From positions 1-37,390 of the IMG/VR virus record IMGVR_UViG_3300027759_000208: a DNA stretch of 37,390 nt; one strand, given 5' to 3'. The position numbers and the translations under genes are program-made. Of this stretch, positions 12,487-24,869 are shown in pieces (within the stretch, counting starts at the first letter, position 1; the number at the start of each line of letters is the position of its first letter). The notes below the pieces were generated by a model. That model made no database searches and was not told the origin of the DNA. It saw nothing but the letters and a program-made list of their open reading frames with translations. The DNA is from a virus.

Positions 12487-12717
12487 ATGAGATACGGTTA
12501 CACTCCAGATGGCAAAATGCGTTATGAGGCTGCAAAGAAAATGACTGGTCTACAGCCACCAATGCCACCAAATCCAGACCCAAAACCTACAAAGCCTAAG
12601 AGTAATAACTTTGGAAAGAAAAAAGGTACACCTGCCCCACCTTATCGTCGTCCTAAAAAGGGTGCGATGACAGAAAAAGATATGGCTGCAAAATTAAGAA
12701 AAATGAGCGACTACTAA
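12487..12717 (+). CDS. Small basic proline-rich protein
   Basis: Function is unknown. The 76-residue product is strongly basic (runs such as KPTKPKS and GKKKG) and proline-rich in its middle, with a C-terminal amphipathic stretch (MTEKDMAAKLRKMSD). It is probably disordered. It is the first gene of the plus-strand arm and follows a candidate promoter with a leader (TACAGCAAAGACAGGA) that supplies AGGA as a ribosome site. A nucleic-acid-binding or host-takeover role would fit an early first gene, but this is inference only. Confidence 0.7.
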   Translation: MRYGYTPDGKMRYEAAKKMTGLQPPMPPNPDPKPTKPKSNNFGKKKGTPAPPYRRPKKGAMTEKDMAAKLRKMSDY

Positions 12718-12743
12718 CATTTCAAAAACATCTAAACACTACA

Positions 12744-13124
12744 ATGCCAGAAACAATTAATGGTTGCCCATCGGCAACACAAGATATTACAATTAACATA
12801 GCCAATAGGCAAACCGCTATAGATAAAGCAAAATATGGTCCAATGCTACCAAATTTGCCATCCACCAAATTTTGGAAAGAAAAATCTGAAATTTTTCATG
12901 TCACTATAGAAGAAGCAAAAAAGGCTAGATGTGGTAACTGTGCAGCGTTTATACAAACACCAGAAATAATGTCATGTATTACCAAAGGACTTGGTGATGA
13001 AAAAGGTTCATATTCTGCTATTGTTATAGATACAGCAAATCTAGGATTTTGTGAAATATTTGATTTTAAATGCGCTGGAGATAGAACCTGTGACGCATGG
13101 GTTACAGGAGGACCAATCAAATAA
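12744..13124 (+). CDS. Cysteine-rich phage protein, possible metal or Fe-S cluster binder
   Basis: The 126-residue product has an ordered set of cysteines in its C-terminal half: CGNC near residue 72, then MSC, GFC, KC and TCDAW. The CxxCxxF start and the final C-x-A-W resemble the spacing of high-potential iron-sulfur proteins, although the fold cannot be proven. I recognise similar proteins in marine phages beside DUF6321-like genes, as here. The stop overlaps the next start as TAATG. The N-terminal half is polar with a KAKYGPMLPNLPSTKFW stretch. A redox, structural-metal or regulatory function are all open. Confidence 0.75.
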   Translation: MPETINGCPSATQDITINIANRQTAIDKAKYGPMLPNLPSTKFWKEKSEIFHVTIEEAKKARCGNCAAFIQTPEIMSCITKGLGDEKGSYSAIVIDTANLGFCEIFDFKCAGDRTCDAWVTGGPIK

Positions 13125-13387
13125 TGGCAAAGACAGCAGCGTGGCAACGCAAAGAAGGACAAAACCCTAAAGGCGGATTAAACGCAATAGGACGAGCAGC
13201 CTACAAGGCGCAAACAGGCGGCACCTTAAAGCCGCCCGTCTCTGCAAAACAAGCAGCAAAATCACCAGCCAGTGCAGCCAGACGCAAATCTTTTTGTGCA
13301 CGAATGGGCGGTTCTAAAGGACCTATGAAAGACAGCAAGGGACGACCAACACGTAAAGCATTGGCTTTACGTAAATGGGACTGCTAA
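13124..13387 (+). CDS. DUF6321-like phage protein
   Basis: This 87-residue basic protein matches, by memory, the DUF6321 family widespread in aquatic phages. Recognisable blocks are WQRKEGQNPKGGLN, GGTLKPPVS, RRKSFCARM and the C-terminal ALRKWDC. The function of the family is unknown; its conserved basic and Cys residues suggest nucleic-acid or virion contact. ATG 13124 overlaps the stop of the cysteine-rich gene as TAATG. It is preferred over an upstream in-frame ATG (13097), which would add nine residues lying inside the previous gene. The final Cys occurs immediately before the stop. Confidence 0.85.
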   Translation: MAKTAAWQRKEGQNPKGGLNAIGRAAYKAQTGGTLKPPVSAKQAAKSPASAARRKSFCARMGGSKGPMKDSKGRPTRKALALRKWDC

Positions 13388-13400
13388 CAAAAAATAATAC

Positions 13401-13426
13401 ATAATATTATTTTTATATAATATTAT
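13401..13426. promoter_or_regulatory. AT-rich inverted repeat and candidate promoter
   Basis: ATAATATTA and TAATATTAT pair over nine bases of pure A/T. TATTAT (13421-13426) runs directly into TACAGCAAAGACA, as TACTAT does at 12454-12473, so the two sites look like related promoter start regions. It may also act as a DNA-unwinding element. Confidence 0.4.
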
Positions 13427-13664
13427 ACAGCAAAGACAAAACACGGTTTAGAGGTATCCCTCTCGCCTTGTACCCATTCATATAGAAAAAAGTTGGCGGC
13501 GTACCCCCCCCATGCCCCCCTCCCGCACGTGTGTGCGCATGCGTCGCACATTATGTGTGTGCGTTCGCCCATGTGTCACAAGACTTTTGCGACATTATAC
13601 CCCAAAAACTTTTTACGTGCGTGTGTGCGTGCATACAAGGTTTGTGTCATGTCGTGTCATCCAC

Positions 13665-13688
13665 GTGTGTGTGCGTGTGTGACGAAAG
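13665..13688 (+). promoter_or_regulatory. GTGTGTGT-GTGTGAC element, copy 1
   Basis: The copy reads GTGTGTGT-GCGT-GTGTGAC-G-AAAG. It is one base shorter than the other four before AAAG, so it may be degenerate. A hairpin follows at 13702-13721 and copy 2 begins 65 bases downstream; no gene lies between them. Confidence 0.6.
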
Positions 13689-13701
13689 GTTTAAGTAATT
13701 G

Positions 13702-13721
13702 TTCAGTGATTAGTTACTGAG
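13702..13721 (+). other. Hairpin after element copy 1
   Basis: TTCAGTGA pairs with TTACTGAG around a TTAG tetraloop, using two G-U pairs. It occupies the same place, relative to its repeat element, as the hexaloop hairpins further right but has a different loop and no gene behind it. Confidence 0.5.
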
Positions 13722-13752
13722 CAGTGTTGATGATGTCAAGCGTACATACATC

Positions 13753-13777
13753 GTGTGTGTGCATGTGTGACAGAAAG
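13753..13777 (+). promoter_or_regulatory. GTGTGTGT-GTGTGAC element, copy 2
   Basis: The copy reads GTGTGTGT-GCAT-GTGTGAC-AG-AAAG. It lies 57 bases before the start of the 57-residue gene, with a hexaloop hairpin between. The two fixed blocks start 12 bases apart, as in all copies. Confidence 0.7.
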
Positions 13778-13787
13778 TCATCAATAA

Positions 13788-13811
13788 GCAGTTAGCAATT
13801 CCGCTGACTGC
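13788..13811 (+). ncRNA. Leader hairpin with AATTCC loop, copy 1
   Basis: GCAGTTAGC pairs with GCTGACTGC (one G-U) around AATTCC. It ends 23 bases before the ATG at 13835, leaving the GGAGGTG ribosome site free. Stem sequence differs from the other copies while loop and closing GC pairs are kept. Confidence 0.75.
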
Positions 13812-13834
13812 ATTGACGTTATGGAGGTGCGTGT

Positions 13835-14008
13835 ATGGGTGGCAAGATTATTTCTAGTGGTGCTTTGCATCACTCGCAATGGCAAGTAGGGCTAGTTGCC
13901 GATAGGGACGATAGCCTTGAGAGTGCGATTGCTCGTGGTACGGTAGAGCAGTGGGAAGTGTTGAACGACATGGCGTATGATGCGTACATGGAGTTAATGA
14001 ACGCCTAG
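13835..14008 (+). CDS. 57-residue hypothetical protein
   Basis: The product begins MGGKIISSGALHHSQW and ends in an acidic, aromatic helix (EQWEVLNDMAYDAYMELMNA). It is too short for a recognised family. Support for the gene comes from the strong GGAGGTG site six bases from the ATG, and from the repeat element and leader hairpin ahead of it that are shared with other genes of this arm. The tRNA-like element at 14015 begins just after its stop. Early host-directed function is a guess from position. Confidence 0.7.
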   Translation: MGGKIISSGALHHSQWQVGLVADRDDSLESAIARGTVEQWEVLNDMAYDAYMELMNA

Positions 14009-14014
14009 TGCGTG

Positions 14015-14064
14015 TGTTCGGGCTGGTGCCATCCCCTTGAGAAGTTCAATTCTTCTCCGAACAA
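14015..14064 (+). ncRNA. tRNA-like minihelix A (acceptor plus T-arm geometry)
   Basis: TGTTCGG (14015-14021) pairs perfectly with CCGAACA (14057-14063), a 7-bp acceptor-like stem. AGAAG pairs with CTTCT around TTCAATT, a 7-base loop that fits the T-loop pattern TTCRANY. Stems of 7 and 5 bp with no bases between them give the 12-bp coaxial stack of a tRNA. Only 18 bases replace the D and anticodon arms, and no CCA is encoded. It cannot be a working tRNA; processing signal, RNA stabiliser or mimic are possibilities. Confidence 0.55.
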
Positions 14065-14090
14065 CAATGTTTCGCTAATACATATACCTC

Positions 14091-14115
14091 GTGTGTGTAT
14101 GAGTGTGACAGAAAG
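14091..14115 (+). promoter_or_regulatory. GTGTGTGT-GTGTGAC element, copy 3
   Basis: The copy reads GTGTGTGT-ATGA-GTGTGAC-AG-AAAG. It follows tRNA-like minihelix A and precedes a hexaloop hairpin and the 85-residue gene. Confidence 0.7.
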
Positions 14116-14121
14116 TAAGTT

Positions 14122-14145
14122 TGTTGTTGCAATTCGGCAACAACA
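14122..14145 (+). ncRNA. Leader hairpin with AATTCG loop, copy 2
   Basis: TGTTGTTGC pairs perfectly with GCAACAACA (9 bp) around AATTCG. It starts six bases after repeat element 3 and ends 34 bases before the ATG at 14180. Confidence 0.78.
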
Positions 14146-14179
14146 TCAACCGCCTTCGGGCAGAAAATGGTAGGGAATC

Positions 14180-14437
14180 ATGGCTAAGAAAACAACTAAG
14201 ACAGCAACACCAATCGTCAATGGTCGCTTTGCGAAACTTGACCGTGAGTGGACGGTAGCGTTCCCGAGTGATGTTTCACTCAGTGTGGGTTCGGTTGTTA
14301 ATGTTGTCACTGCTGACGGTGCGCCGAAAGTTGTGAAGATTAGTTCGGCACCTTTCGTGGTGTTCAATGTGACTACTCAGGCGATTAGTGCAGAAATGTT
14401 CTACACGTTTGACCGTATCGCAAAGGCAAGCAAGTAA
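14180..14437 (+). CDS. 85-residue hypothetical protein
   Basis: Function is unknown. A basic N-terminus (MAKKTTKTA) is followed by a compact beta-patterned body: REWTVAFP, SVGSVVNVVTADG and VVKISSAPFVVFNV. The SVGSVVNVVTADG stretch looks like a small barrel, as in SH3-like or OB-like single-strand or RNA-binding proteins, but no signature residues allow a family call. It has a repeat element, a leader hairpin and a GTAGGGA ribosome site. The gap behind it carries a heavily structured RNA. Confidence 0.72.
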   Translation: MAKKTTKTATPIVNGRFAKLDREWTVAFPSDVSLSVGSVVNVVTADGAPKVVKISSAPFVVFNVTTQAISAEMFYTFDRIAKASK

Positions 14438-14465
14438 TACACACTCACTAGTGAGTGTTTGGTTC

Positions 14466-14507
14466 GGGTAGGCACGTAGGTGCTTGTGGTGCAAGTCCAC
14501 ACTACCC
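14466..14507 (+). ncRNA. Compact three-way junction B with T-loop-like arm
   Basis: GGGTAG pairs with CTACCC and encloses two hairpins with a single unpaired base. The first is GCAC-GTAG-GTGC. The second is TGTGG-TGCAAGT-CCACA, whose 7-base loop matches the T-loop pattern except for G at the second position. It has the acceptor, D and T geometry of a tRNA without an anticodon arm. A GGTGCAAGTCC string also resembles part of cobalamin riboswitches, but the other conserved parts are missing. Confidence 0.5.
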
Positions 14508-14648
14508 ACTAGTGTTTAGTGTGCGTTTGCTATAAACGCTCGGATAGTATGCGTACCCGTTGGGGTTGTGAGACACAACGGCATTACGTCTATGCTAAGT
14601 CTGAGGTTTATAGATTAGACTTGCGCACATTAAACGCTTCATTTTGTT

Positions 14649-14662
14649 ACACAATCCCGTGT
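14649..14662 (+). ncRNA. Leader hairpin with AATCCC loop, variant copy
   Basis: ACAC pairs with GTGT around AATCCC, and flanking T-G wobbles may extend it. Loop and distance to the ATG at 14686 (23 bases) follow the hexaloop family with one loop change, so it may be a diverged member. Confidence 0.45.
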
Positions 14663-14685
14663 GGCATAGACAAGAAAGGTAACGT

Positions 14686-14850
14686 ATGATAGCAGAAAAT
14701 TCTAGTGTGCGTAAGGAATATGTTAAGTGTCGTGTTCATAACGATAAAATGTGGGATTTTATTACTCGCCCACAGCAAGACCCTCGTGATGTGTCAGTAT
14801 ACGAGGATGAGGTAGTGTATGATGAGTTGGTTGCGTTAATGTCAGTGTAA
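14686..14850 (+). CDS. 54-residue hypothetical protein
   Basis: The product, MIAENSSVRKEYV to ALMSV, is moderately acidic in its C-terminal half (VYEDEVVYDELV) and has one Cys and one Trp. No family is recognised. GAAAGG lies seven bases before the ATG. A long structured leader and a further hexaloop hairpin behind the stop bracket the gene. Small size leaves moderate doubt, but the ribosome site and clear end within a dense gene string support it. Confidence 0.65.
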   Translation: MIAENSSVRKEYVKCRVHNDKMWDFITRPQQDPRDVSVYEDEVVYDELVALMSV

Positions 14851-14866
14851 TGTTAGGGTTGTGGTT

Positions 14867-14892
14867 TACCGATAGCAATTCCGCTATCGGTA
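14867..14892 (+). ncRNA. Leader hairpin with AATTCC loop, copy 3
   Basis: TACCGATAGC pairs perfectly with GCTATCGGTA (10 bp) around AATTCC, 20 bases before the ATG at 14913. Here no GTGTGTGT element precedes it, which shows that the hairpin is an independent module. Confidence 0.8.
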
Positions 14893-14912
14893 TGATGCTA
14901 TAAAGGAGAATT

Positions 14913-15104
14913 ATGTTGTATTTGTATACGTTAGCGTTTGTTATGTCTGTTAGTGTTATGGGTGTTGTGGTTATTTGTTGGTTGGATTTTAAACGTGCTA
15001 ATGACCGTAAATGTCATTGCAGTGTGTGTAGTGTTAAACCTGTAGTGAAATCGGCTAGACATGAGGCTATTCGTAAGCGTCATGGGTTGAAAGGAGGTAA
15101 GTAA
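14913..15104 (+). CDS. Small membrane protein with Cys cluster
   Basis: The 63-residue product has an N-terminal transmembrane segment (about residues 3-23). A basic cytoplasmic-type tail follows with CHCSVC (near residues 34-39), then more Lys/Arg. The two or three cysteines plus His could bind a metal ion. AGGAG lies at ribosome distance and a hexaloop hairpin precedes it. Its stop overlaps the next start as TAATG, beginning a chain of five tightly packed mini-genes. Function is unknown; membrane location is the only firm inference. Confidence 0.72.
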   Translation: MLYLYTLAFVMSVSVMGVVVICWLDFKRANDRKCHCSVCSVKPVVKSARHEAIRKRHGLKGGK

Positions 15105-15229
15105 TGAAACGTACAAACATATATCGGATTAACCGTATGATGGGTGACTCAATTATTGTAGCGTTGTGGTATGCAATAAACTGGAAATGTTGGGATATTT
15201 CAAAATGTTGGGAGGATTATAATGACTAG
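15104..15229 (+). CDS. 41-residue hypothetical protein
   Basis: The product starts MKRTNIYRINRMMGD and is rich in Trp and Ile (ALWYAINWKCWDISKCW). It may be a short amphipathic membrane-associated peptide. Overlaps with the genes on both sides (TAATG upstream, eight bases downstream) and a strong AGGAGGT site support it. No family is recognised. Confidence 0.6.
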   Translation: MKRTNIYRINRMMGDSIIVALWYAINWKCWDISKCWEDYND

Positions 15230-15323
15230 GGAAATGATTATATTTATGGTTGGTTGTATTGTGGGTACTGTTAGTGCTAGGGTTGTGGCTTATCAAATTA
15301 AACGAGAGAAAGAGGGTAGATAA
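15222..15323 (+). CDS. 33-residue membrane peptide
   Basis: The product starts MTREMIIFMVGCIVG and has a single hydrophobic helix (about residues 5-22) and a charged tail (KREKEGR). GGGAGG sits just upstream. It overlaps the previous stop and joins the next gene as TAATG. A holin-like or anti-host membrane peptide is possible; no family is recognised. Confidence 0.6.
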   Translation: MTREMIIFMVGCIVGTVSARVVAYQIKREKEGR

Positions 15324-15526
15324 TGGCTAGTAGAAAAGATTATCAACAGATAGCACATGCGTTCACTCAGGCTAATAATTGTTTGATTGATTATCAGGAT
15401 ATTCCAGAAATTTATAATTTCTGGCAGGATTTCACGTCAGTGTTGATGATGGAATTGTGCGCATATTTTGAGGAAGATAATTCGTTGTTTAAGTCTGAGA
15501 AATTTGTTGAGGCGTGTGGGTTATGA
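15323..15526 (+). CDS. 67-residue hypothetical protein of an actinophage-like small family
   Basis: The product begins MASRKDYQQIAHAFTQAN and continues as an acidic, aromatic helical protein (ELCAYFEEDNSLFKSEKF). Short proteins with this KDYxxIAxA opening are common in actinophage early regions, recalled without a database check; none has a known function. GAGGGTAG provides the ribosome site, and overlaps on both sides tie it to its neighbours. Confidence 0.7.
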   Translation: MASRKDYQQIAHAFTQANNCLIDYQDIPEIYNFWQDFTSVLMMELCAYFEEDNSLFKSEKFVEACGL

Positions 15527-15588
15527 TATATGGGTTGTTAGCGATAGGAATTGTTCGTTTTATCCGTTACATTATGAAAGGTAGGTAG
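15523..15588 (+). CDS. Possible 21-residue membrane peptide
   Basis: ATG overlaps the preceding stop as ATGA. The peptide, MIYGLLAIGIVRFIRYIMKGR, is one short hydrophobic/basic helix. It would fill an otherwise empty gap in a string of overlapping mini-genes. Length is too small for a firm call, and no strong ribosome site is visible. Confidence 0.35.
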   Translation: MIYGLLAIGIVRFIRYIMKGR

Positions 15589-15591
15589 GTT

Positions 15592-15801
15592 ATGAAGGCT
15601 AGTAAATTGGTTGAAATCTTTTCAGCGTATGACGCTGATGAGGAGATTATTGTTGATTGGTTAGGTAAGGAAGAATTTGAGGATGAGGAAGATATTTCGG
15701 ATGATGAGTGGTTGCGTGTTGTTAATCGTGTTAGTGGTAAAGTAGCGTTAGATACAGAATACATTGCGTTAGCACTATACGAGGAACATCAGAAATCGTA
15801 A
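15592..15801 (+). CDS. Acidic 69-residue hypothetical protein
   Basis: The product starts MKASKLVEIFSAYDADEEIIVDW and has a very acidic middle (KEEFEDEEDISDDEW). The opening pattern KLVEIF-Y-DADEEIIVDW is familiar from small proteins of many phages, of unknown function; a similar module may mimic nucleic acid because of its charge. GGTAGG is its ribosome site. It is the last mini-gene before repeat element 4 and the AAA ATPase. Confidence 0.7.
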   Translation: MKASKLVEIFSAYDADEEIIVDWLGKEEFEDEEDISDDEWLRVVNRVSGKVALDTEYIALALYEEHQKS

Positions 15802-15812
15802 CATGTAGCCCC

Positions 15813-15837
15813 GTGTGTGTACTAGTGTGACAAAAAG
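15813..15837 (+). promoter_or_regulatory. GTGTGTGT-GTGTGAC element, copy 4
   Basis: The copy reads GTGTGTGT-ACTA-GTGTGAC-AA-AAAG. It starts 12 bases after the previous stop and precedes the hexaloop hairpin and AAA ATPase gene. Confidence 0.72.
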
Positions 15838-15851
15838 AAAGTTAGTAAGTT

Positions 15852-15879
15852 TGGTGGCTAGCAATTCGGCTAGTCACCA
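15852..15879 (+). ncRNA. Leader hairpin with AATTCG loop, copy 4
   Basis: TGGTGGCTAGC pairs with GCTAGTCACCA (11 bp, one G-U) around AATTCG. It ends 23 bases before the AAA ATPase ATG at 15903 and leaves AAGGAGA exposed. Confidence 0.8.
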
Positions 15880-15902
15880 TTAAACAAATAAAGGAGAATA
15901 TA

Positions 15903-17186
15903 ATGGCAGGGAAAGCATTAGAAATCGTATCCATAGATACATCGGCAGGCAAATGCTTGGTGAGGTATCCTAACGGACAGGAGTACCACAATTCGTGGGC
16001 TAGTTTGGACAAGAACACTTTGATAGTGTTGTGTGGCAAACTAGGACACAAATTCACTGGTATGACCCCGATGAAATTGGATAGAATTTCGTTGAAAGAT
16101 ATTGCCTACACTTATATGCTTGGCGCACCGAAACCTACTGAGTCGTTTCCGCAAGTACCTACGGTACCTGCTGTCACTGCTAGTAATACGGATAAGGTCG
16201 CTGATGCTGTTCGTAACGTTATCGCTGATGCGTTGCGTAATGGTGGCATAGACGAGGAGGCTGTTCAATCGTTGATTAGTGCACGATTGGCTGAGAGTGA
16301 GGTTATATTTAGTTCACGTTTGGATTATTTAACCCGTGATTTGCAGGCACAAATCAAGGACAATCGCCCACAAGTGACACAAGTGGTATTAACTGACGGT
16401 AAGGTTGTAACGCCTAAAGGCGTTCAACATCAATCGTTCCCTAAGGTTCTCAAGGCGATTAGTCGTGGGCAACATATATGGATGACTGGTTCTGCAGGTG
16501 CAGGTAAGACTACGATTGCCGAGCAGGTAGCAGAAGCGTTAGGGTTAGAGTATGATAGCGACTCATACAATTCGCAATCATCTAAATCCGATATCAAGGG
16601 TTACAAGTCAATTAGTACAGACTTGTATCAATCAACAGGTTTCCGTAATCGCTTTGAACATGGTGGAGTATATTTGTTGGATGAGATTGACGCATCTAAT
16701 CCGAATATTCTCACTACGCTCAATAGTGCGTTATCTAATTCGGTTATGGGGTTCCCTGACGGTATGGTGAAACGTCATCCTAAGTTCGTTGCTATCGCTG
16801 CAGCGAACACGTGGGGTAATGGTGCTACTGCCGAACATGTGGGTCGTGTTGCGATTGATGGTGCTACGATAGACCGTTTCGCTATGATGCACATACCGAT
16901 TGATGAGAACCTTGAGAGTACGCTAGTTATTAATACTGGTGTTAATCTGCAAGTCGGGCAACAGTGGGTTAATATTGTGCGACAAGCACGAGCCAACGTT
17001 GATAAGCACGGACTCAAGGTGATAGTATCACCACGTGCTAGTATCGGTGGTGCTATACTGTTGGATTGTGGGTTCTCATGGCAGGAGGCAGTGGAAATGC
17101 GTATACTCAAGGGTTCTAAACCTGAGGTTGTCGCTAAGATTATGGATAACATACAGGTTCCGAAAGGCGTACCCGTTACGGTATAA
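15903..17186 (+). CDS. MoxR/CobS-like AAA+ ATPase
   Basis: The 427-residue protein couples ATP hydrolysis to remodelling of a partner. Residues 1-150 are a variable N-terminal region; the AAA core follows. Walker A is GSAGAGKTT (196-204), Walker B YLLDEIDAS (D260, E261), the sensor-1-like motif is AANTWGNG, and TIDRFAMM holds the likely arginine finger. The layout is close to CobS/MoxR ATPases, which typically work with VWA-domain partners. Repeat element 4 and a hexaloop hairpin precede it, and the next gene has its own repeat element. Absence of helicase motifs argues against a replicative role. The real substrate is unknown. Confidence 0.9.
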   Translation: MAGKALEIVSIDTSAGKCLVRYPNGQEYHNSWASLDKNTLIVLCGKLGHKFTGMTPMKLDRISLKDIAYTYMLGAPKPTESFPQVPTVPAVTASNTDKVADAVRNVIADALRNGGIDEEAVQSLISARLAESEVIFSSRLDYLTRDLQAQIKDNRPQVTQVVLTDGKVVTPKGVQHQSFPKVLKAISRGQHIWMTGSAGAGKTTIAEQVAEALGLEYDSDSYNSQSSKSDIKGYKSISTDLYQSTGFRNRFEHGGVYLLDEIDASNPNILTTLNSALSNSVMGFPDGMVKRHPKFVAIAAANTWGNGATAEHVGRVAIDGATIDRFAMMHIPIDENLESTLVINTGVNLQVGQQWVNIVRQARANVDKHGLKVIVSPRASIGGAILLDCGFSWQEAVEMRILKGSKPEVVAKIMDNIQVPKGVPVTV

Positions 17187-17201
17187 CACACTAGGCTTGG
17201 C

Positions 17202-17241
17202 TACCAACTCTAGTGAGTTTCCCTGCCTACTAGGGTTGGTA
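17202..17241 (+). other. 13-bp hairpin after the AAA ATPase gene
   Basis: TACCAACTCTAGT pairs with ACTAGGGTTGGTA (one T-G) around a 14-base loop. It lies between the ATPase stop and repeat element 5. No U-run follows, so it is not a standard terminator. Its stem is close in length to the 12-bp stacks of tRNA-like element A, which occupies the equivalent place before repeat element 3. Confidence 0.65.
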
Positions 17242-17247
17242 TGCTAT

Positions 17248-17272
17248 GTGTGTGTAGGTGTGTGACATAAAG
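17248..17272 (+). promoter_or_regulatory. GTGTGTGT-GTGTGAC element, copy 5
   Basis: The copy reads GTGTGTGT-AGGT-GTGTGAC-AT-AAAG, 34 bases before the next ATG. It is the only gene-proximal copy without a following hairpin. Confidence 0.72.
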
Positions 17273-17306
17273 TAAATTCAACAACAACTATAGAAAGTAG
17301 GTTATT

Positions 17307-18137
17307 ATGAGACAGTTTATGCAAAGTGATTCGTGGGTTGAGTCGTTTGATAGTATGTCAGAAATTTTGGCTTACGCATCAGATAACTCTAATCGTAAGT
17401 CATCCGATAATCGTGATGCGTTTGATTTCACTCAAACGAAATCACTTGACGAGGCAATCACGCTAGGTGTGTCGGGTTGGCATGATATTCGTGCTGAGGT
17501 TGATTCACTGTTCGCTAGGGTTGAACCTAGTTGCGGTATCGCTATGGGCGATATGTTTGAGACTAAGTTTGATGTGTGCGGTGACAGCGGAGACATTGAC
17601 CGTTATCTATCGGGAGAACCTGAGTGTATGATAGATTATGTTAATGTGCCACAAGCACGTATGGGTAGGATTGTGCGGATATTGATTAATGGTTCAGTCA
17701 ATGCTCACGTTTCTGCTGATGCTATTAAGAAACGTGGTGTGACTGTTACGGTGTTGATTAGCATACTTAATCGTTTAGGTGTGGGTGTTGAGGTTTATCT
17801 AGAGAATTGCACACGTTCTGCAGGCAAGTATCATTCGTTATTGGTGAAGTTGCATGATAGTGCCGAGTTACTTGACATAGATAACCTGATGTTCGCTATC
17901 GCCCATCCGTCTATGTTGCGTAGAGTATCGTTTAGTAACATGGAGAAATCAAAATGGGGTGAGGCTAAGAAAATTATTCAGGGAGGTTACGGTTCATCCA
18001 ACACTGTTATGCTTGCAAATTACTTACAAGCAGATGTGGTTGTAGACAGGATGGAAGATGCTACAGGGAATTATGAGGATGATGCTTACAAGTACGTTAT
18101 GAGTACTGTACGAGGTTTGGGGTTAGTTGAGTGCTAG
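17307..18137 (+). CDS. Probable partner of the AAA ATPase (VWA-like/DUF7192-like)
   Basis: The 276-residue product lies immediately after the MoxR/CobS-like ATPase. The central part has a VWA-like alternation of strands and helices: RIVRILINGSVN, then VTVTVLISILNRLGVGVEVYLEN. The MIDAS motif DxSxS that binds metal in true VWA domains is not visible. I recall similar phage proteins paired with CobS-like ATPases under the name DUF7192, unverified. The N-terminal part carries an SWVESFDSMSEIL helix and a cysteine-containing acidic segment. By analogy with MoxR-VWA pairs it may recruit the substrate. It has its own repeat element and an AAGTAGG site. Confidence 0.7.
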   Translation: MRQFMQSDSWVESFDSMSEILAYASDNSNRKSSDNRDAFDFTQTKSLDEAITLGVSGWHDIRAEVDSLFARVEPSCGIAMGDMFETKFDVCGDSGDIDRYLSGEPECMIDYVNVPQARMGRIVRILINGSVNAHVSADAIKKRGVTVTVLISILNRLGVGVEVYLENCTRSAGKYHSLLVKLHDSAELLDIDNLMFAIAHPSMLRRVSFSNMEKSKWGEAKKIIQGGYGSSNTVMLANYLQADVVVDRMEDATGNYEDDAYKYVMSTVRGLGLVEC

Positions 18138-18165
18138 AATAATACCAAGTAACAATAACCCCGAA

Positions 18166-18197
18166 ACGGTGGTGGGGCAACAAACCCCCACCACCGT
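18166..18197. other. Strong GC-rich intergenic hairpin
   Basis: ACGGTGGTGGGG pairs perfectly with CCCCACCACCGT (12 bp) around an eight-base loop. It lies in the 99-base gap between the ATPase partner and the 74-residue gene. No T-run follows on either strand. The stem is strong enough to halt polymerase or block exonuclease, separating the ATPase block from the next operon. Confidence 0.8.
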
Positions 18198-18236
18198 CAC
18201 TGGATATCAAAACAACAACAGAAAGAAATTATAATT

Positions 18237-18461
18237 ATGGCTAAGAAAACTAAGAATAGAATGTTTGAAATAAAAATGATTGTAGAAGCACCAATGGATG
18301 ATAGCGAAATCGTAAACGAAACAGTATTACAAGCAGTCCTAGACACTGGATGTAAAGTACAGTTCATGTCTTTGGGTTCTAGTTTTACTAACGATTTGCT
18401 AACAGAATACTGGGGTCACGAAATACAGCAAATGATTATACCAACAGATGAGGAGAAATAA
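18237..18461 (+). CDS. 74-residue hypothetical protein
   Basis: Function is unknown. The product begins MAKKTKNRMFEIKMIVEAPMDD, with a basic start followed by beta strands, then a helix and an acidic tail (IIPTDEEK). It directly abuts the DUF3846 gene, whose ATG follows the stop, and GAGGAG near the end provides that gene's ribosome site. The pair is therefore probably co-regulated. No signature is visible. Confidence 0.7.
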   Translation: MAKKTKNRMFEIKMIVEAPMDDSEIVNETVLQAVLDTGCKVQFMSLGSSFTNDLLTEYWGHEIQQMIIPTDEEK

Positions 18462-19121
18462 ATGAGTACAGTATCAGCAGTGTTATTAAAGTCAGGCGTA
18501 GGAGTAGAACCTGAAGCCGTTATGATTGACGGGTTAGAATCTATACAGAAACTTGTCGGTGGGGTAATTGATGCGGTGCGTATTGATACGCAACAAGTTA
18601 ATCAAGCAACTGGCGAAGAAGAACCTAGATTCACTATTGTGGGTTATGTTCACGATGAAGGTATAATGTTAGATTTAGAAATCAACTGGATTGCTAGCGC
18701 ATTGTTTCAACAACGAATCGTTGGTAACGTTGTGCTAGTGAGTGGTAACAGTCCTACAGGTGAGTATGATGGTGAAAACTATGATATACCTGATACACTA
18801 TTCAGATGGTTGTCTACATCTTTTGTTAAACATGTTGCCAAAACCTATAATGAATCTGTTATGGTAGCAGAGATATTGGATTACGTAAAAAATGATGGCG
18901 GGTTCACACCCGCAGAAGTTGCTTTGTTTACCGAAACGATGCAAAATATTATGGACACAGGCAAAGATGACGGCACCGATGGTGCAGAACTCATAGACAC
19001 AATGTTAAAAAAAGCAAAGCAACACATGATGGATAAAGTTATTGCGAAAACAGCAGAAAAAGAATCAAGCACACTAATTGACGAAATAAATACGTTCCTA
19101 GAAGGAGAGGCAAACAAGTAA
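18462..19121 (+). CDS. DUF3846-domain protein
   Basis: The 219-residue protein opens with a DUF3846-like domain. The pattern PEAVMIDGLESIQKLVGG, then a GIMLDLEINW strand and IVGNVVLVSG, agrees with that family, which is common in phages and plasmids and has no known function. Residues from about 115 onward add a helical extension (LSTSFVKHVAKTY, FTETMQNIMD, DTMLKKAKQHMMDK) not expected in the short family form. No catalytic residues are evident. The stop overlaps the next start as TAATG. Confidence 0.8.
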   Translation: MSTVSAVLLKSGVGVEPEAVMIDGLESIQKLVGGVIDAVRIDTQQVNQATGEEEPRFTIVGYVHDEGIMLDLEINWIASALFQQRIVGNVVLVSGNSPTGEYDGENYDIPDTLFRWLSTSFVKHVAKTYNESVMVAEILDYVKNDGGFTPAEVALFTETMQNIMDTGKDDGTDGAELIDTMLKKAKQHMMDKVIAKTAEKESSTLIDEINTFLEGEANK

Positions 19122-19306
19122 TGGCATTAAACACATACACAGGTACGTTCAGTATCTCATTCAGAGTACAAGCAATAGATGAAGAAGCGGCTGCAGATGA
19201 ACTTTATGAGGTTTTAAATGACCGCATATTGAACGGTATTAGTGCTGCAGCGTTTGCGTTACATGATGAAATAACCCTAATCCATAAAGGAGAAAACAAT
19301 GAGTGA
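19121..19306 (+). CDS. 61-residue hypothetical protein
   Basis: The product MALNTYTGTFSISFRVQAIDEEAAADELYEV resembles the small beta-alpha proteins that often accompany DUF3846 genes: a strand, an acidic helix, a short strand and a charged end. The start overlaps the DUF3846 stop as TAATG and the end overlaps the following gene by eight bases. No function can be assigned. Confidence 0.68.
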   Translation: MALNTYTGTFSISFRVQAIDEEAAADELYEVLNDRILNGISAAAFALHDEITLIHKGENNE

Positions 19307-19502
19307 AATAAAATATCCAAACGTTAAAGTACGTCTAACAGGGCGTGATGGTAATGCGTTCGCTATTATGGGTGCCGTTAGCATGGCACTCAGATTAGCG
19401 GATGTAAGCAAAGAAGAAATTGCAGAATATCGCAAAGAATCAACAGCAGGAGATTACGACAATCTGTTACGAGTAGCAGATAGATGGGTGGTGGTATTGT
19501 GA
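19299..19502 (+). CDS. Small conserved-type phage protein (DGNAFAI family)
   Basis: The 67-residue product carries the opening PNVKVRLTGRDGNAFAIMG, the helix SMALRLADVSKEEI and the end DYDNLLRVADRWVVV. I recognise this combination as a small family found across phages, plasmids and some bacteria, without known activity. AAGGAGAA is the ribosome site. It overlaps neighbours on both sides. The pattern suggests a compact alpha/beta fold. Confidence 0.78.
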   Translation: MSEIKYPNVKVRLTGRDGNAFAIMGAVSMALRLADVSKEEIAEYRKESTAGDYDNLLRVADRWVVVL

Positions 19503-20086
19503 ATTGTGGAACCATAGAACATGATACAGAATGTTTATGCGATGTCAAACCATTAGGTAAACTAATGGTTAATCGTGACAGTGTATACGACATGTGGCAA
19601 GGAGAACGCATAGCAGAAATCTTAGGCTACATGAACGATGAACACGAATGGAACAAAGAAACAATGCTACATTACCTAGAAACGTTAGTTAATGTTCATG
19701 ATATATGGATTGAAAGCAACGGACATTATTATAAAACGTTTGATGATGTTAAGCCCCTAGAGTTTCCTAGTGGGTGGTCAAAGTTACAGCAATGGAAACT
19801 CGTAAGAGATAGCGTTATGGCAGTATGCAACCAACATCCCGAAGTAGCAGTTTTGGATGTATTAAACAAACTTGACATAACATTAAAAGAATTCATTTGT
19901 GCAGTAACTGTCAATAAAAGCCACTATTATATGAACGAAACAGAGTTCCGTTCATTCAGTGACGAAATGATAAACACAGCCAAACCAAATTATGCTCATA
20001 TCGGTAGAACATACAAAACTGGTAAAGGTACTGGAAGTTATTGGAAAAGATTATTCCAATCTAGCAGAGACAAAAAGGTGAAATAA
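19499..20086 (+). CDS. 195-residue hypothetical protein
   Basis: No family is recognised. Cysteines cluster at the N-terminus (NCGTIEHDTECLCD), possibly for metal binding. The middle is acidic and aromatic-rich (MNDEHEWNKETMLHYLETLVNVHD), and the end is basic and aromatic (KGTGSYWKRLFQSSRDKKVK), a possible nucleic-acid contact. GTG at 19499 overlaps the preceding stop as GTGA; an ATG at 19484, 15 bases upstream in frame, is the alternative. A 96-base gap with a hairpin follows before the nuclease gene. Confidence 0.68.
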   Translation: MNCGTIEHDTECLCDVKPLGKLMVNRDSVYDMWQGERIAEILGYMNDEHEWNKETMLHYLETLVNVHDIWIESNGHYYKTFDDVKPLEFPSGWSKLQQWKLVRDSVMAVCNQHPEVAVLDVLNKLDITLKEFICAVTVNKSHYYMNETEFRSFSDEMINTAKPNYAHIGRTYKTGKGTGSYWKRLFQSSRDKKVK

Positions 20087-20113
20087 CAAAATGGTATACT
20101 GTTTTTACTGGTA

Positions 20114-20141
20114 ACTTATAGTCCTTATCAGTCCTATAAGT
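20114..20141 (+). other. Hairpin before the RecB-like nuclease gene
   Basis: ACTTATAG pairs perfectly with CTATAAGT around a 12-base loop. TATACT stands close to both this gap's start (20095-20100) and the next gap (20987-20992), each in the context AATGRTATACT, so each may be a promoter -10. TTGAAC lies just after this hairpin. Evidence is moderate for the hairpin and weak for promoters. Confidence 0.5.
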
Positions 20142-20182
20142 CTTTGAACTGTCTATGCTGTACTACTTATTAAAGGAGATAT

Positions 20183-20977
20183 ATGAGAATAGATAGTAAT
20201 AATAAAGTAATATATATTAGACAATCATGGCTTGGGGACATAGGTATATGTCCCGAAAGGTCTAGATTGGGTTTAGTTAGACCCGAATTTCGTACTGGTT
20301 CCGATGCTACCATTATAGGTACTGCCGTGCATACTGGTATTGAAGCAGTGTTGAACGGTAAATGTAAAGAATTTGCTGACATGTTGGAGTTTGTTTGCAA
20401 CGATTATGAATCGTTGGAGACAACAGATTACAAGAAAACTAACATCAATCAGGAAGCAATCCCACAATATTTGGAGTCTATGTCGTTAGCGTTTTATGAG
20501 GACATTCTTCCTAAGGTTACTTTGGGTGGTACTGCTGAACAATATTTTAAGGTTCCTTTAAATATTGATGTTGATGGTTACGCTATTTGGCTTGAAGGTA
20601 CGATGGATTATATTGACCCTAATGGTGTTGTATGGGATTGGAAAACCTCTAGCAGACCGTATTATGGTAAAGAGAAACAGAAATCGGCTATTCAACCAAC
20701 GGTGTATACTTACGCTGCAAGTATAATTCAGCAGGCGGTACCATCGTTTAATTATGGTGTTATGGTTAGGCAACTAGAACCTAAAGCACAAATTGTGCCA
20801 ATCATTAGAGATGCTAGCCATTGGAATTGGTTAAAACATCATGTTCGTGGTGCGGTAACAACCGCATTGCGTACAGGATTAAATAATCAATGGATAACAA
20901 ATGATAGTAGTGCGTTATGTTCAGCGTCATGGTGCAGTTTTTGGAGTATCTGTAAGGGTGCTTATAACTGCGAATAA
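20183..20977 (+). CDS. RecB/Cas4-like PD-(D/E)XK exonuclease
   Basis: The 264-residue nuclease probably resects DNA ends for recombination-dependent replication. The motifs are in order: GTAVH (H50), GTMDYID (D142), VWDWKTS (D152, K154) and QPTVYTYA (Q171). Cysteines at 23, 246, 251 and 257 are placed like the four ligands of the AddB/Cas4 4Fe-4S cluster, with three grouped in the C-terminal CSASWCSFWSIC. It lies upstream of the helicase and primase, and AAGGAGAT is an excellent ribosome site. The Cas4-like cluster is inferred from cysteine order only. No CRISPR genes are present. Confidence 0.9.
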   Translation: MRIDSNNKVIYIRQSWLGDIGICPERSRLGLVRPEFRTGSDATIIGTAVHTGIEAVLNGKCKEFADMLEFVCNDYESLETTDYKKTNINQEAIPQYLESMSLAFYEDILPKVTLGGTAEQYFKVPLNIDVDGYAIWLEGTMDYIDPNGVVWDWKTSSRPYYGKEKQKSAIQPTVYTYAASIIQQAVPSFNYGVMVRQLEPKAQIVPIIRDASHWNWLKHHVRGAVTTALRTGLNNQWITNDSSALCSASWCSFWSICKGAYNCE

Positions 20978-21019
20978 TAGAATGATATACTAATAACAAC
21001 ACACAACGATAGGAGAAAT

Positions 21020-21469
21020 ATGCAAGTATCAAAAGACCATTCCATTATAATGCAGGTTGCAGGTAAAATCGCTGCCGACATTGTACCAAAATCGGATGAT
21101 GTAAACAGGACTTCATCTGATTGGTTAGTTGCGTTTGACGTAATTTGTGAAGCGTTGTTTGAAAAAATGGGCATTGACACGACAGCAGATACGTCAGTGC
21201 CTACAGAAGTAGCGGTAGCAAACGCTTTTCCTACAGCAACAGTTATACACACAGCACAACAGTATGCACAACCAGCGCAAGGTGGGACAGTCAGAATCAA
21301 AGGTACACAACACGGTCCAGTGCCAGCATGGTTAGCAGGAGAATGTGCTAAGAAAGGTGTTACCGAAGTGTGGGATAACCGTGATGGGCTGACAGTAAAC
21401 CCAAAGCGTCCTTGGTTTAAATCAACCACAGGTACGGATGCGTTTTGGGAACCTAGAGCAAGGCGGTAA
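21020..21469 (+). CDS. ssDNA-binding-type protein with degenerate C-terminal zinc-ribbon motif
   Basis: The 149-residue product has a helical N-terminal half (SDWLVAFDVICEALFEKMG) and an Ala/Thr/Pro linker. Its C-terminal part contains CAKKGVTEVWDNRDGL and NPKRPWFK, ending in DAFWEP. The same WDNR...NPK-PxF pattern closes many phage ssDNA-binding and recombination proteins as a zinc ribbon. Here most ribbon cysteines are lost, leaving one. The position just before the helicase and primase agrees with a replication accessory role. GGAGAA is its ribosome site. The assignment is by motif only. Confidence 0.6.
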   Translation: MQVSKDHSIIMQVAGKIAADIVPKSDDVNRTSSDWLVAFDVICEALFEKMGIDTTADTSVPTEVAVANAFPTATVIHTAQQYAQPAQGGTVRIKGTQHGPVPAWLAGECAKKGVTEVWDNRDGLTVNPKRPWFKSTTGTDAFWEPRARR

Positions 21470-21471
21470 CT

Positions 21472-22548
21472 ATGACCGTCCCTGATTATGAGGGACGTTG
21501 GGCTAAGTTGGGACGGGGAGAGAATATCTCCCCGTCCGATTTGCCTATACATCCACTAGCGTATTATACGCCGTTAGTTAAAGCCGCCGATGATTATGTT
21601 CATTGGGCGCAAACACCAAACGAAAGAATCTATTTAGGTTTTGCCGACATAGATTCCGAAATGCGTGGCATTGCACCATCAGAACTATGTGTCATAAACG
21701 GTTATAGTCATAGCGGTAAAACTTTGGCGTTACTACAAATATTGGTAGCGAACAGAGATAAACGTGTAATCTATTTCTGCCCAGACGAACCCAGAACATT
21801 GACGTTAATCAAATTGGCTTGCGTAACTCATGGTATAGAAGCGAATTTACTTGAACAAAGAATCGCAGACCATGACCAAGAGTCTATAAAGTTGTTACGA
21901 GAAACAGCGTCAGTTCATTTCCCACACTTAGCAGTATTTGACCAAACAGTATCTCTAGTAGATATGGAACGTGCGCTATCGGAAACGATAGATGTCATGG
22001 GCGAACCACAACTAATCGTTGTGGACTATTTGGATTTGATTACAGGCGGTGGAGAAGATGTACCATCCAAAGCAAACGCTATAAAAGCGTTCGGTAAAAG
22101 ACATAATGTACCTTTGCTTGTGTTGCATCAATCTAGCCGTACAGCAGGTGCAGATGGTAGGAAAATGACTATCAGTTCAGGTGCCTATGGTGGAGAACAA
22201 CAAGCAACACACATTATAGGTGTGCGACGGAAACGGTTTGAAATAGAAGGACACATCCGTGAACTGCAAGAGAAACTAGACAGAGCAGCGAATACAGAAA
22301 AGATTATGTCCAAGATAGAAGAACTGCAATACGATTTACGTATCCACATGGATACATTAACGTTAAACTTAGTTAAATGTAAACGTCCAGCAGGTAAACT
22401 ATTAGACGACATGGACTTTGTAATTGAATCAGGAACAGGAAGATTAAAACGTTTAGAGAACGGTGTGTTACCATACCGAATGGACGACCCAATACCTGTT
22501 CCTAGCGAAGTGCCACAAACAGTACAAGACGTATTAGCCGATTGGTGA
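21472..22548 (+). CDS. DnaB-like replicative helicase (RecA-fold ATPase)
   Basis: The 358-residue enzyme would unwind the fork. Walker A is GYSHSGKT (77-84), Walker B IVVDYLDL (D185), and the later H-motif-like VLHQSS followed by GAYGGEQQATHIIGVRRKR is typical of DnaB/Gp4 helicase C-terminal domains. A coiled-coil-like stretch (IRELQEKLDRAANTEKIMSKI) lies between residues 255 and 285. The N-terminal domain of cellular DnaB is missing, as expected of compact phage helicases. AAGGCGG precedes ATG 21472 and the primase gene follows after 11 bases. Confidence 0.88.
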   Translation: MTVPDYEGRWAKLGRGENISPSDLPIHPLAYYTPLVKAADDYVHWAQTPNERIYLGFADIDSEMRGIAPSELCVINGYSHSGKTLALLQILVANRDKRVIYFCPDEPRTLTLIKLACVTHGIEANLLEQRIADHDQESIKLLRETASVHFPHLAVFDQTVSLVDMERALSETIDVMGEPQLIVVDYLDLITGGGEDVPSKANAIKAFGKRHNVPLLVLHQSSRTAGADGRKMTISSGAYGGEQQATHIIGVRRKRFEIEGHIRELQEKLDRAANTEKIMSKIEELQYDLRIHMDTLTLNLVKCKRPAGKLLDDMDFVIESGTGRLKRLENGVLPYRMDDPIPVPSEVPQTVQDVLADW

Positions 22549-22559
22549 GAGGAGAATGT

Positions 22560-23492
22560 ATGTTTCTAAACGAAGAACTAGTAACGCAATACCTAACACT
22601 ATTCAGAGGACGAGGAGATGTGTACGGCAGTGACGATGGGGGATGTGTAAAAGCACCCCTCACAAGAGAAGTGTTCCTCAGACATTTAGCAGGAGAAGAA
22701 AAAATTGGTGTATACCCTATGGTGCCGTTCGGTGACGTGCATAAAGTTGTTTGGGGTTGCTCAGATTTTGACTTAGGTATAGAAAAGTCTGCAGAGTCTG
22801 CTATAAAGTTATTTGACGCATTAGAGGCTGCAGGTGTCACAGCATGGATAGAACGTTCACGTTCCAAAGGTTACCATGTTTGGGTATTCGCAGAAGAACC
22901 AGTATCAGCAGAAGTTATGCGCAACATGTTCCTAGTAGCCCACCAAGTAGCAGGAGTACCAGCAACAGAAGTAAATCCGAAACAGACAACATTAAAAAGT
23001 GGACAATACGGAAACTATGTACGCCTACCATACGCTGACTGCAAAAATGTTTATACAGAAAACCAACGAGTGTTCTATCGTGGCACCATGTTGGCAGGCG
23101 TGTATAAAACACCAGTAACACTCATAGACTTTACACGTGCTGCAATGGCGTGTCGGACACCAGTAGAACTATTGGAATCTATTGCAGAGATGTATGTACC
23201 GCCAGCGAAACCAGCGAACGCACCAGCAACAGCAGAGTACGATGCTACACTAGATGAGGCTATGTCTGTTCTGTCTCCGCTAGGTAAAGTTATATGGCGT
23301 GACGGTCCTTTGCCCAACAAAGACCGTTCATCCACGTTAGCAAAACTAGGTTACGAATCTGCCAAGTCAGGTCTTAACCCTAGCCAAACTAAAACTATAC
23401 TCAAAACTGCCGACAGGCGTTGGGGTAAATATTATATGCGTGCAGACGGTGACATGGAAATAGACAAACTAGTTGTCCGAGTACACGCATGA
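22560..23492 (+). CDS. Archaeo-eukaryotic-type primase (AEP/TOTE-like)
   Basis: The 310-residue enzyme would make replication primers. The three AEP motifs are present: SDFDLG (D69, D71) for metal, RSKGYHVWVF (with H106) for nucleotide binding, and SGQYGNYVRLPY for the third site, in the order seen in TOTE-like primases. The C-terminal half has a PriCT-like helical region (NPSQTKTILKTAD). ATG 22560 is chosen because AGGAG lies six bases upstream, although reading can begin earlier at 22542. It is unlike DnaG, and no phage DNA polymerase is present, so it must work with host polymerase or also prime-extend. The stop overlaps the next ATG. Confidence 0.87.
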   Translation: MFLNEELVTQYLTLFRGRGDVYGSDDGGCVKAPLTREVFLRHLAGEEKIGVYPMVPFGDVHKVVWGCSDFDLGIEKSAESAIKLFDALEAAGVTAWIERSRSKGYHVWVFAEEPVSAEVMRNMFLVAHQVAGVPATEVNPKQTTLKSGQYGNYVRLPYADCKNVYTENQRVFYRGTMLAGVYKTPVTLIDFTRAAMACRTPVELLESIAEMYVPPAKPANAPATAEYDATLDEAMSVLSPLGKVIWRDGPLPNKDRSSTLAKLGYESAKSGLNPSQTKTILKTADRRWGKYYMRADGDMEIDKLVVRVHA

Positions 23493-24070
23493 CCAGCATC
23501 CTAGCAGTACAAGGTGAAAACTTTTGTGCCATAGGTTCAGACTCGCAATGGACAGACGATTATGGTCGTGTGGGCAAAATGTTACAACCCAAAGTAATAA
23601 CTTTGGGTAAATACTTTATAGGCGTTGCAGGTGACACTCGTGGCGCAAACATCATACAACACGTATTCGCCGCACCGCAACTTCCGCCAAAACTAACAGG
23701 CATAAAACTGACAAAGTTTATGGTATCACAATTCGTGCCAGCATACCGTTTATGCCTAGAAGAACACGGATTAGGGTTACCCCAATACGAATCCAACCCT
23801 GCAGAATCCTCCATAGAAACATTGGTGTGCGCTAACGGTGTAATCTATCAAATTGATGGCGACTACGGCACGGAAACAGATGGGAACGCATTATATGCTA
23901 TTGGTTCTGGTGCGCATTATGGTTTGGGTGCAATGCAAGCATATACGAATGGTAAGAAGGTTATGGTATCTTCTGTCAAACAGTTGCTACTTAAGTCATT
24001 AACGATAAGTGCCAAGTTTGATAGCGGTTCAAGTTCGCCGTTTCATACCTTTATACAGAATGGAATATAA
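23489..24070 (+). CDS. HslV/proteasome beta-like Ntn hydrolase
   Basis: The 193-residue product looks like a self-compartmentalising threonine protease subunit. Translation begins Met-Thr-Ser, so Met removal exposes Thr1. Counting from Thr1, Asp17 sits exactly where the family acid is, and Lys34 (PKV) is one residue from the expected Lys33. The family markers FIGVAGDTRGAN and AIGSGAHYGLGAMQAY match the glycine turn and the final GSG helix of HslV. No HslU or PAN-like ATPase is adjacent; the AAA ATPase at 15.9 kb is a distant alternative. ATGA overlap links it to the primase. The substrate is unknown. Confidence 0.85.
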   Translation: MTSILAVQGENFCAIGSDSQWTDDYGRVGKMLQPKVITLGKYFIGVAGDTRGANIIQHVFAAPQLPPKLTGIKLTKFMVSQFVPAYRLCLEEHGLGLPQYESNPAESSIETLVCANGVIYQIDGDYGTETDGNALYAIGSGAHYGLGAMQAYTNGKKVMVSSVKQLLLKSLTISAKFDSGSSSPFHTFIQNGI

Positions 24071-24411
24071 TGTACCACAAAGTATTCGTAGCCACAAAAC
24101 CAGTACCTAAAGGTCGTCCAAGAATGACACGCAGAGGACGTGTTTACACACCAGCAACAACATTGGAGTCGGAAGATATAATCCGTGCAGCATGGGACGG
24201 ACCAATGTTTGAAGGCGAAGTTATGCTACAATGCACATTTAGTAAAGAAGGAATTGCCATACACGTTCAAGACATTAGCGACAAACTAGTGCCATTAACA
24301 AAACTACGAGGCGACTTAGATAACTATGTCAAACTGTTGATGGACGGTTTGAACGGTGTTGCATGGAAAGATGACAAGCAAGTAACAGTGCTTGTGGCGG
24401 ATAAACGATGA
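24070..24411 (+). CDS. rusA: RusA-like Holliday junction resolvase
   Basis: The 113-residue enzyme cleaves four-way junctions and branched replication products. It has PKGRPRMTRRGRVYTPA at the N-terminus and DLDNYVKLLMDGLNG followed by WKDDKQV at the C-terminus, which supply the aspartates of the RusA active site. Length and motif order are normal for the family. It starts by overlapping the proteasome-like gene end (TAATG) and stops by overlapping the following nuclease gene (ATGA). It would clear junctions before packaging. Confidence 0.93.
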   Translation: MYHKVFVATKPVPKGRPRMTRRGRVYTPATTLESEDIIRAAWDGPMFEGEVMLQCTFSKEGIAIHVQDISDKLVPLTKLRGDLDNYVKLLMDGLNGVAWKDDKQVTVLVADKR

Positions 24412-24869
24412 ACAAATCTGATTATGATATTGGACCAATGCCAAATGATTGGCAAACAGATTTAACGTTCGGACATAAAGGCGAAAAACTTGTATCAGAG
24501 TTCCTAGAAAAAATAGGGGCAGGTGCATTTGAAGTCAAAACAGACCGATACCGCAACGGACGCATGGTACTAGAAATGAAACAGAACCCACGCAGACGCA
24601 TGAACGATGACGGTACCGCAGTATGGATACCATCAGGGTTAGCGATAACGAAAGCGGAATGGTGGGTTTATGTTTATGCGTTAGATGGTTCGTTTGTGAT
24701 TCTGTCTGTGCCACGCATTAAACGTTACCTGAAAGCAAACAAGTCACGTTTCTGTCCAACGAAGATGCACAAGTTTGCGTGGAGAAGCGGTAACCCATCT
24801 ATGGGTTACCTATTGGAACCTGAAGATGTGATGGATATGATGATTAATGAGAAATATGATTTATCCTGA
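24408..24869 (+). CDS. PD-(D/E)XK-type nuclease
   Basis: The 153-residue protein shows GEKLVSEFLEKIG as a helix, then FEVKTDRYRNGRMVLEMKQNP. The EVK motif with a later Glu-Met-Lys, E..K spacing resembles PD-(D/E)XK folds, and W-Y-A (AEWWVYVYAL) forms the usual follow-on strand. It is compact, like the phage restriction-type or VRR/Holliday-type nucleases. Its place between RusA and a sigma-like gene suggests recombination or host-DNA attack. The exact catalytic set cannot be settled by eye. Confidence 0.68.
   Translation: MNKSDYDIGPMPNDWQTDLTFGHKGEKLVSEFLEKIGAGAFEVKTDRYRNGRMVLEMKQNPRRRMNDDGTAVWIPSGLAITKAEWWVYVYALDGSFVILSVPRIKRYLKANKSRFCPTKMHKFAWRSGNPSMGYLLEPEDVMDMMINEKYDLS

Follow-up and report, generated by a model that had tools for sequence, protein, structure and literature searches.

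Some bacterial mRNAs, ompA among them, carry a 5'-terminal stabilising hairpin in the leader, which does not cover the ribosome site and is not known to depend on any one loop. Leader hairpins with a fixed loop are also a known kind of element (PMC3014915; PMC2864571): in the gp43 operators of T4 and RB69 the loop and the upper stem are kept and the hairpin lies about 40 bases before the start codon (PMC3014915). Furthermore, hammerheads flank prophage genes, and it has been proposed that with such ribozymes phages cleave their long transcripts into mRNAs of gene length (PMC3088659).

The locus compared here with these systems lies in the uncultured IMG/VR record of a virus of aquatic bacteria, a phage record of 37,390 b and 41% GC, which was analysed over its whole length and is called the window below. 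Packaging, head and other late genes are found on its minus strand and replication genes on its plus strand, and the hairpins sit in the first part of the rightward region, at 13.4-17.3 kb (Table 1), where long non-coding leaders separate short ORFs and which we infer to be early. The roughly 440 nt of 13400-13834 lack a convincing ORF and contain many GTGTG strings and dyads, together with a 12-bp hairpin of loop TTAG (13698-13725) located after a promoter-like repeat. At both contig ends (1-160 and 37195-37344) the minus strand encodes a near-identical peptide (RKNREKVAKQQLDDIGDTPFNE), with no exact terminal overlap between the ends of the window; these peptides reflect either a terminal repeat that is not exact or an error of assembly. 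A megablast of 12500-26000 against GenBank phages was empty and the best capsid identity among GenBank phages was 41% or less; by these comparisons no cultured phage is close to the window. The capsid was not found in bacterial genomes, and therefore no host is named. A peptide-pattern search with the AAA protein alone retrieved no relatives. These were retrieved first via the capsid gene (80 loci, 82-89% identity); an orthologous AAA ATPase was present in 8 of the longer capsid-matched records, and alignment of the AAA protein led to 80 loci with 80 leaders.

Table 1. Positions of the leader elements and reference genes in the window, and of the tRNA-like elements in its relatives
Feature	Position	Strand	Remarks
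Promoter-like repeat, GTGTGTGTnnnnGTGTGACA (GACG version)	13665..13690	+	Followed by a 12-bp hairpin with another loop (TTAG)
Promoter-like repeat	13753..13778	+	Upstream of hairpin 1
Hairpin 1	13788..13811	+	GCAGTTAGC-AATTCC-GCTGACTGC, 9 bp, one wobble; precedes ORF 13835 (57 aa)
tRNA-like elements, window	14015-14063 and 14465-14508	+	
Promoter-like repeat	14091..14116	+	Upstream of hairpin 2
Hairpin 2	14122..14145	+	TGTTGTTGC-AATTCG-GCAACAACA, 9 bp; precedes ORF 14180 (85 aa)
ORF 14180, 85-aa protein family	14180..14437	+	Leader with AATTC hairpin in the window and L159, with CATTAG motif in L156
Fifth hairpin, weak	14645..14666	+	8 pairs, two of them G-U, around the loop AATCCC; upstream of ORF 14686 (54 aa)
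Hairpin 3	14867..14892	+	TACCGATAGC-AATTCC-GCTATCGGTA, 10 bp; lacks an upstream GTGTG element; followed by ORF 14913 (63 aa)
Promoter-like repeat	15813..15838	+	Upstream of hairpin 4
Hairpin 4	15852..15879	+	TGGTGGCTAGC-AATTCG-GCTAGTCACCA, 11 bp, one wobble; precedes MoxR-type AAA ATPase
MoxR/CbbQ-type AAA ATPase gene	15903..17186	+	Anchor for locating orthologous leaders
Promoter-like repeat	17248..17273	+	Upstream of ORF 17307 (DUF7192); no hairpin after it
tRNA-like elements, relatives	L156 3932, L159 2971 and 3406, L165 3515, L196 4869, L200 4864, others	+	

The string GCAATTCSGC occurs exactly four times in the window, always on the plus strand (13795, 14129, 14875 and 15861), against 0.1 expected per window in dinucleotide shuffles. 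The four hairpins built on it have perfect stems of 9, 9, 10 and 11 bp with energies of -11.4 to -18.1 kcal/mol, and they account for the GC-AATTC top common to four of the window's 20 hexaloop hairpins with stems of 9 bp or more; in 60 shuffles there were never two hexaloop hairpins with a common 7-mer top. The description given by the first-pass annotation, namely four hairpins with different 9- to 11-bp stems and one GC-AATTC(C/G)-GC top, is thus confirmed, and the spacing of 20-34 bases before an ATG that it had reported agrees with the distance of about 20-34 nt measured from the 3' end of the hairpins. The fifth, weaker hairpin which it had listed is present as well; at about -9 kcal/mol it is weak taken alone, and it becomes credible because relatives have strong AATCCT leader hairpins (CCGTTGGC-AATCCT-GCCAACGG in L172, with variants also in L187 and L190), being a plausible variant of the AATTC hairpin. 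For hairpin 1 a lower helix is predicted between TCAAT (13781-13785) and ATTGA (13812-13816). A further leader hairpin of 12 bp with a different loop, ACGGTGGTGGGG-CAACAAAC-CCCCACCACCGT, is located at 18166-18197, about 39 nt upstream of ORF 18237.

The AATTC hairpin is real, and selection acts on it at the RNA level, in the transcribed strand. It is kept at the orthologous place before the AAA gene in related IMG/VR phages, and in a closer group, with AAA proteins about 45-60% identical to that of the window, nearly every AAA leader carries an AATTC(C/G/T) hairpin closed by C-G; L178 and some others at a similar AAA distance have an AAA leader without it. In L159 an AATTCC hairpin also stands ahead of the ORF 14180 ortholog. 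The analysis of ten distinct orthologous AAA-leader stems, chosen by position and with pairing ignored, gave 95.6% standard pairs and 24 two-sided changes against a shuffled mean of 8.0 (0 of 500 shuffles were as high), the pairing falling to 14-52% in slid controls. All 17 distinct hairpins together are 96.7% paired, with 55 two-sided changes versus 16.5, in a set which includes several found by pairing, the test on the ten orthologs being the fairer one. Wobbles in the hairpins, some of which were found by pairing, amount to 19 G-T and 0 A-C on the transcribed strand, and the ten orthologs by themselves contain 14 G-U; since the wobbles are all G-U on that strand, the hairpin acts as RNA. 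The data therefore support the earlier proposal that the changing stems reflect an RNA structure under selection whose loop is recognised, as the orthologous leaders keep their pairing by compensatory changes and the loop is retained even at this protein distance. A covariance model retrieves more copies in relatives, e.g. L172 4402, L185 and L187, and both additional copies and excess covariation in homologous leaders are thus present.

In a scan of all IMG/VR with an upstream element and the loop, in which pairing was ignored, these phages gave 8-9 of 9 pairs and unrelated contigs 3-6 of 9, the latter thus serving as an internal negative control. The scan of viral contigs with the window's own promoter element and loop yielded only chance matches devoid of a stem. 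The loop is enriched in leader hairpins (11/156 vs 5/2476), the relatives not being mutually independent. At least eight gene families are found downstream of the hairpin: the AAA ATPase, the 85-aa family of ORF 14180, a 134-aa family, a gene of L217 which resembles the DUF7192 gene of the window, ORFs 13835, 14913 and 14686 (the last with the weak hairpin), and a 110-aa gene of L222. Its general form is a free stem of about 9 bp with the fixed top G-C-A-A-U-(U/C)-C-N-G-Y; about 20-42 nt separate its end from the start codon, and for the most part the Shine-Dalgarno sequence remains free.

Most copies of the hairpin have a promoter-like repeat directly upstream, which in the window (13665, 13753, 14091, 15813 and 17248) is GTGTGTGTnnnnGTGTGACAnAAAG. 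The GTGTGTGT...GTGTGACA-AAAG element has its own version in each phage group (GTGTGACAnAAAG in the window, GTGTTGAAGTA in the L118 group, GTGTCAAAGATA in the L166 group and GTGTCAAAAAAGAT in the L178 group) and lies on the early strand, where any one of the stretches examined has at most about five copies; in these respects it behaves as a phage-specific promoter would. It may pair with a phage sigma-like protein encoded at 24847-25221, a short protein with a weak match to sigma region 4. The hairpin at 14867 has no GTGTGTGT element and the element at 17248 has no hairpin; since each occurs alone they are separate modules, as the first-pass annotation had deduced from the former copy. The GTGTG element was also considered as the 3' arm of an upstream hairpin, with which it pairs in many leaders, yet it recurs unpaired at 17248 and therefore a promoter-like repeat fits better.

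The AAA-leader slot of other relatives is occupied by a type II hammerhead motif, a D-armless tRNA-like element or a motif that we call CATTAG, and some AAA leaders carry none of the four elements. The hammerhead core consists of stem II GGAC/GTCC, GAA, a stem III ending in GTC, stem I and CTGATGA. There are 32 distinct motifs of this type in the relatives retrieved and 0 in the reversed control, and nearly all of them are closely followed by a Shine-Dalgarno sequence and a start codon (L104, L115, L128, L133, L166, L168, L176, L180, L182, L192-L195, L204, L206, L207, L211, L213, L217, L219, L226, L228 and L233), and their cleavage activity is inferred from this core. In G008, L166 and L168 the AATTC hairpin stands at the AAA gene and a hammerhead motif ahead of another gene; the window itself contains none, as searched with stem II around GAA(A)/CTGATGA, a stem III ending in NTH and stem I.

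The tRNA-like elements (28 distinct, all on the plus strand; the reversed control has 3 and the mono-shuffled one 0) are about 44-54 nt long and comprise an acceptor-like helix of 6-7 bp, then either a spacer or a small hairpin, and a T-arm of canonical form (5 bp, with the loop TTCAATT, TGCAATT or TGCAAGT), without a D-arm. They are placed in leaders and after stop codons, were missed by ARAGORN and Rfam, and may possibly be RNase P or RNase Z processing sites. All 42 bases of the segment 14466-14507 recur unchanged in L159, proteins of both phages being only about 55% identical. Regarding true tRNA genes, there is none in the window, and many distant relatives have a genuine tRNA-Asn(GTT) gene some 1-2 kb ahead of their AAA gene (L176 3735, L188 3847, L193 2509, L195 3524, L196 3400 and L205 1460, among others). 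The CATTAG motif, GGTGG-hairpin-CATTAGRTGTNCGTGAACGNACAGCC, is conserved in 31 leader copies in relatives (e.g. L156/L108, L166, L171, L177, L188, L200, L204 and L207) and absent from the window; in the sixteen loci scanned with Rfam it matched no family, and it can be read as a three-way junction whose first arm varies and whose TGAA-loop arm is fixed. In L156 it precedes the gene before which the window and L159 have an AATTC hairpin. All these modules occupy the same kind of place: they follow a promoter-like repeat or the end of a gene and precede the ribosome site, leaving it free. On this comparative evidence, the AATTC hairpin is one of several leader RNA modules that can replace one another.

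We propose, with a little less than even confidence, that the hairpin is a cis-acting leader module near the 5' end of the mRNA, whose loop would be read by a putative factor in order to tune lifetime or translation. The hairpins would be copies of one RNA module in the 5' leaders of the rightward, putatively early genes; transcription, assumed to start just after the promoter-like repeat, would bring the hairpin close to the 5' end, and a putative host or phage factor reading the loop would define or protect this end in each early message. Hammerhead cleavage in the relatives would perform the same task, also leaving a hairpin (stem I) at the 5' end, and it is by analogy with such a hairpin-first message that we place the AATTC hairpin there. 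Such a loop, which does not vary, asks for a factor able to read it, and where a leader hairpin has a fixed loop a recognition event is usually involved. The position just after promoter-like repeats is suggestive of a 5'-terminal stabilising hairpin. Against a 5'-end location, the copy at 14867 has no such repeat, so that either the hairpin is internal there or the start signal differs; moreover, plain 5' protection would need no fixed loop. A bolder reading, possible but rather unlikely, is that the AAUYCN hairpin is the site of a putative RNA-binding factor acting over the whole early regulon and at the same time one of several interchangeable leader cassettes (loop hairpin, hammerhead, tRNA-like element and three-way junction) which individualise messages.

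The invariant loop, the free stems and the occurrence before several genes of one phage could also be explained by a translational operator, the main alternative, in which a phage RNA-binding protein on the loop blocks or recruits ribosomes and the genes form one regulon, in the manner of T4 gp43, where loop and upper stem are likewise kept about 40 bases before the start (PMC3014915). We consider this explanation rather unlikely: the ribosome site is not covered by the hairpin, a swap with hammerhead motifs before orthologous genes would alter the regulation radically, and no candidate protein emerged, ORF 14180, examined as a possible RNA-binding protein, being predicted as all-beta with no informative match in a fold search. 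By eye, complementarity for a pseudoknot between loop and Shine-Dalgarno sequence is found in only some leaders. The location after promoter-like repeats and the tandem hairpins of several folded leaders would agree with a nut- or put-like element for antitermination or modification of the RNA polymerase after early promoters; such an element would nevertheless be redundant for copies before single genes within 2 kb, one copy has no promoter-like repeat, and a boxA-like element common to all was not seen by eye, which makes this reading improbable. The slot shared with the type II hammerhead motifs of relatives might suggest a self-cleaving ribozyme of a new class in place of the hammerhead, although nothing beyond the hairpin top is invariant in all leaders and so small a core would be unprecedented; its probability is very low. 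Both antitermination and self-cleavage are thus less likely. A protein-binding palindrome at the DNA level or chance inverted repeats, for which one could invoke the adjoining promoter-like repeats, are disfavoured and have hardly any probability left, considering the excess of G-T over A-C pairs, the stems that diverge freely around an asymmetric loop that stays, and the shuffles that never produced such a set.

Returning to our proposal of a cis-acting leader module and its relation to known classes, Rfam 15 reported no family at gathering thresholds in the window, and none that matched this motif in 16 relatives, although the hammerhead motif of L176 was also not reported by Rfam, and a relaxed Rfam search of 13400-17400 gave chance-level matches only. 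None of these hairpins qualifies on the plus strand as an intrinsic terminator (GC-rich hairpin with a T run after it on the same strand). A literature search did not find the AATTC(C/G) loop or the set of exchangeable modules. The T-arm of tRNA, a 5-bp stem with a seven-base loop of TTCRANN type, was rejected as an identity: the CAATTC string is common to the T-loops of the nearby tRNA-like elements, but the hairpin has a six-base loop AATTCN closed by C-G, no U54-A58 arrangement and no acceptor helix. With the T4/RB69 gene 43 operator (PMC3014915) it shares the nature of a phage leader hairpin with a conserved loop tens of bases before the start codon; that operator differs in its UAAC loop and in serving one gene, with autoregulation of DNA polymerase, whereas AAUYCN precedes many genes with different products, an AAA ATPase and small unknown ORFs among them, and the gp43 type was therefore rejected. 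As in the type II hammerheads (PMC3088659), the leader slot of orthologous genes in relatives is used, yet neither a CUGAUGA nor a GAAA core is present in the hairpins of the window. These natural swaps of the hairpin for motifs of a known activity, hammerhead cleavage, before orthologous genes render the role of leader RNAs in early phage messages directly testable, and two further kinds of uncatalogued RNA structure, the tRNA-like elements and the CATTAG motif, belong to the same system. The hairpin resembles those of the ompA type in leaving the ribosome site uncovered and differs from them in that the loop is here the most conserved part. A leader hairpin with a fixed loop is already known as a kind; here the relatives either keep it or have other structured RNAs in its place, which suggests a modular RNA control of phage messages.
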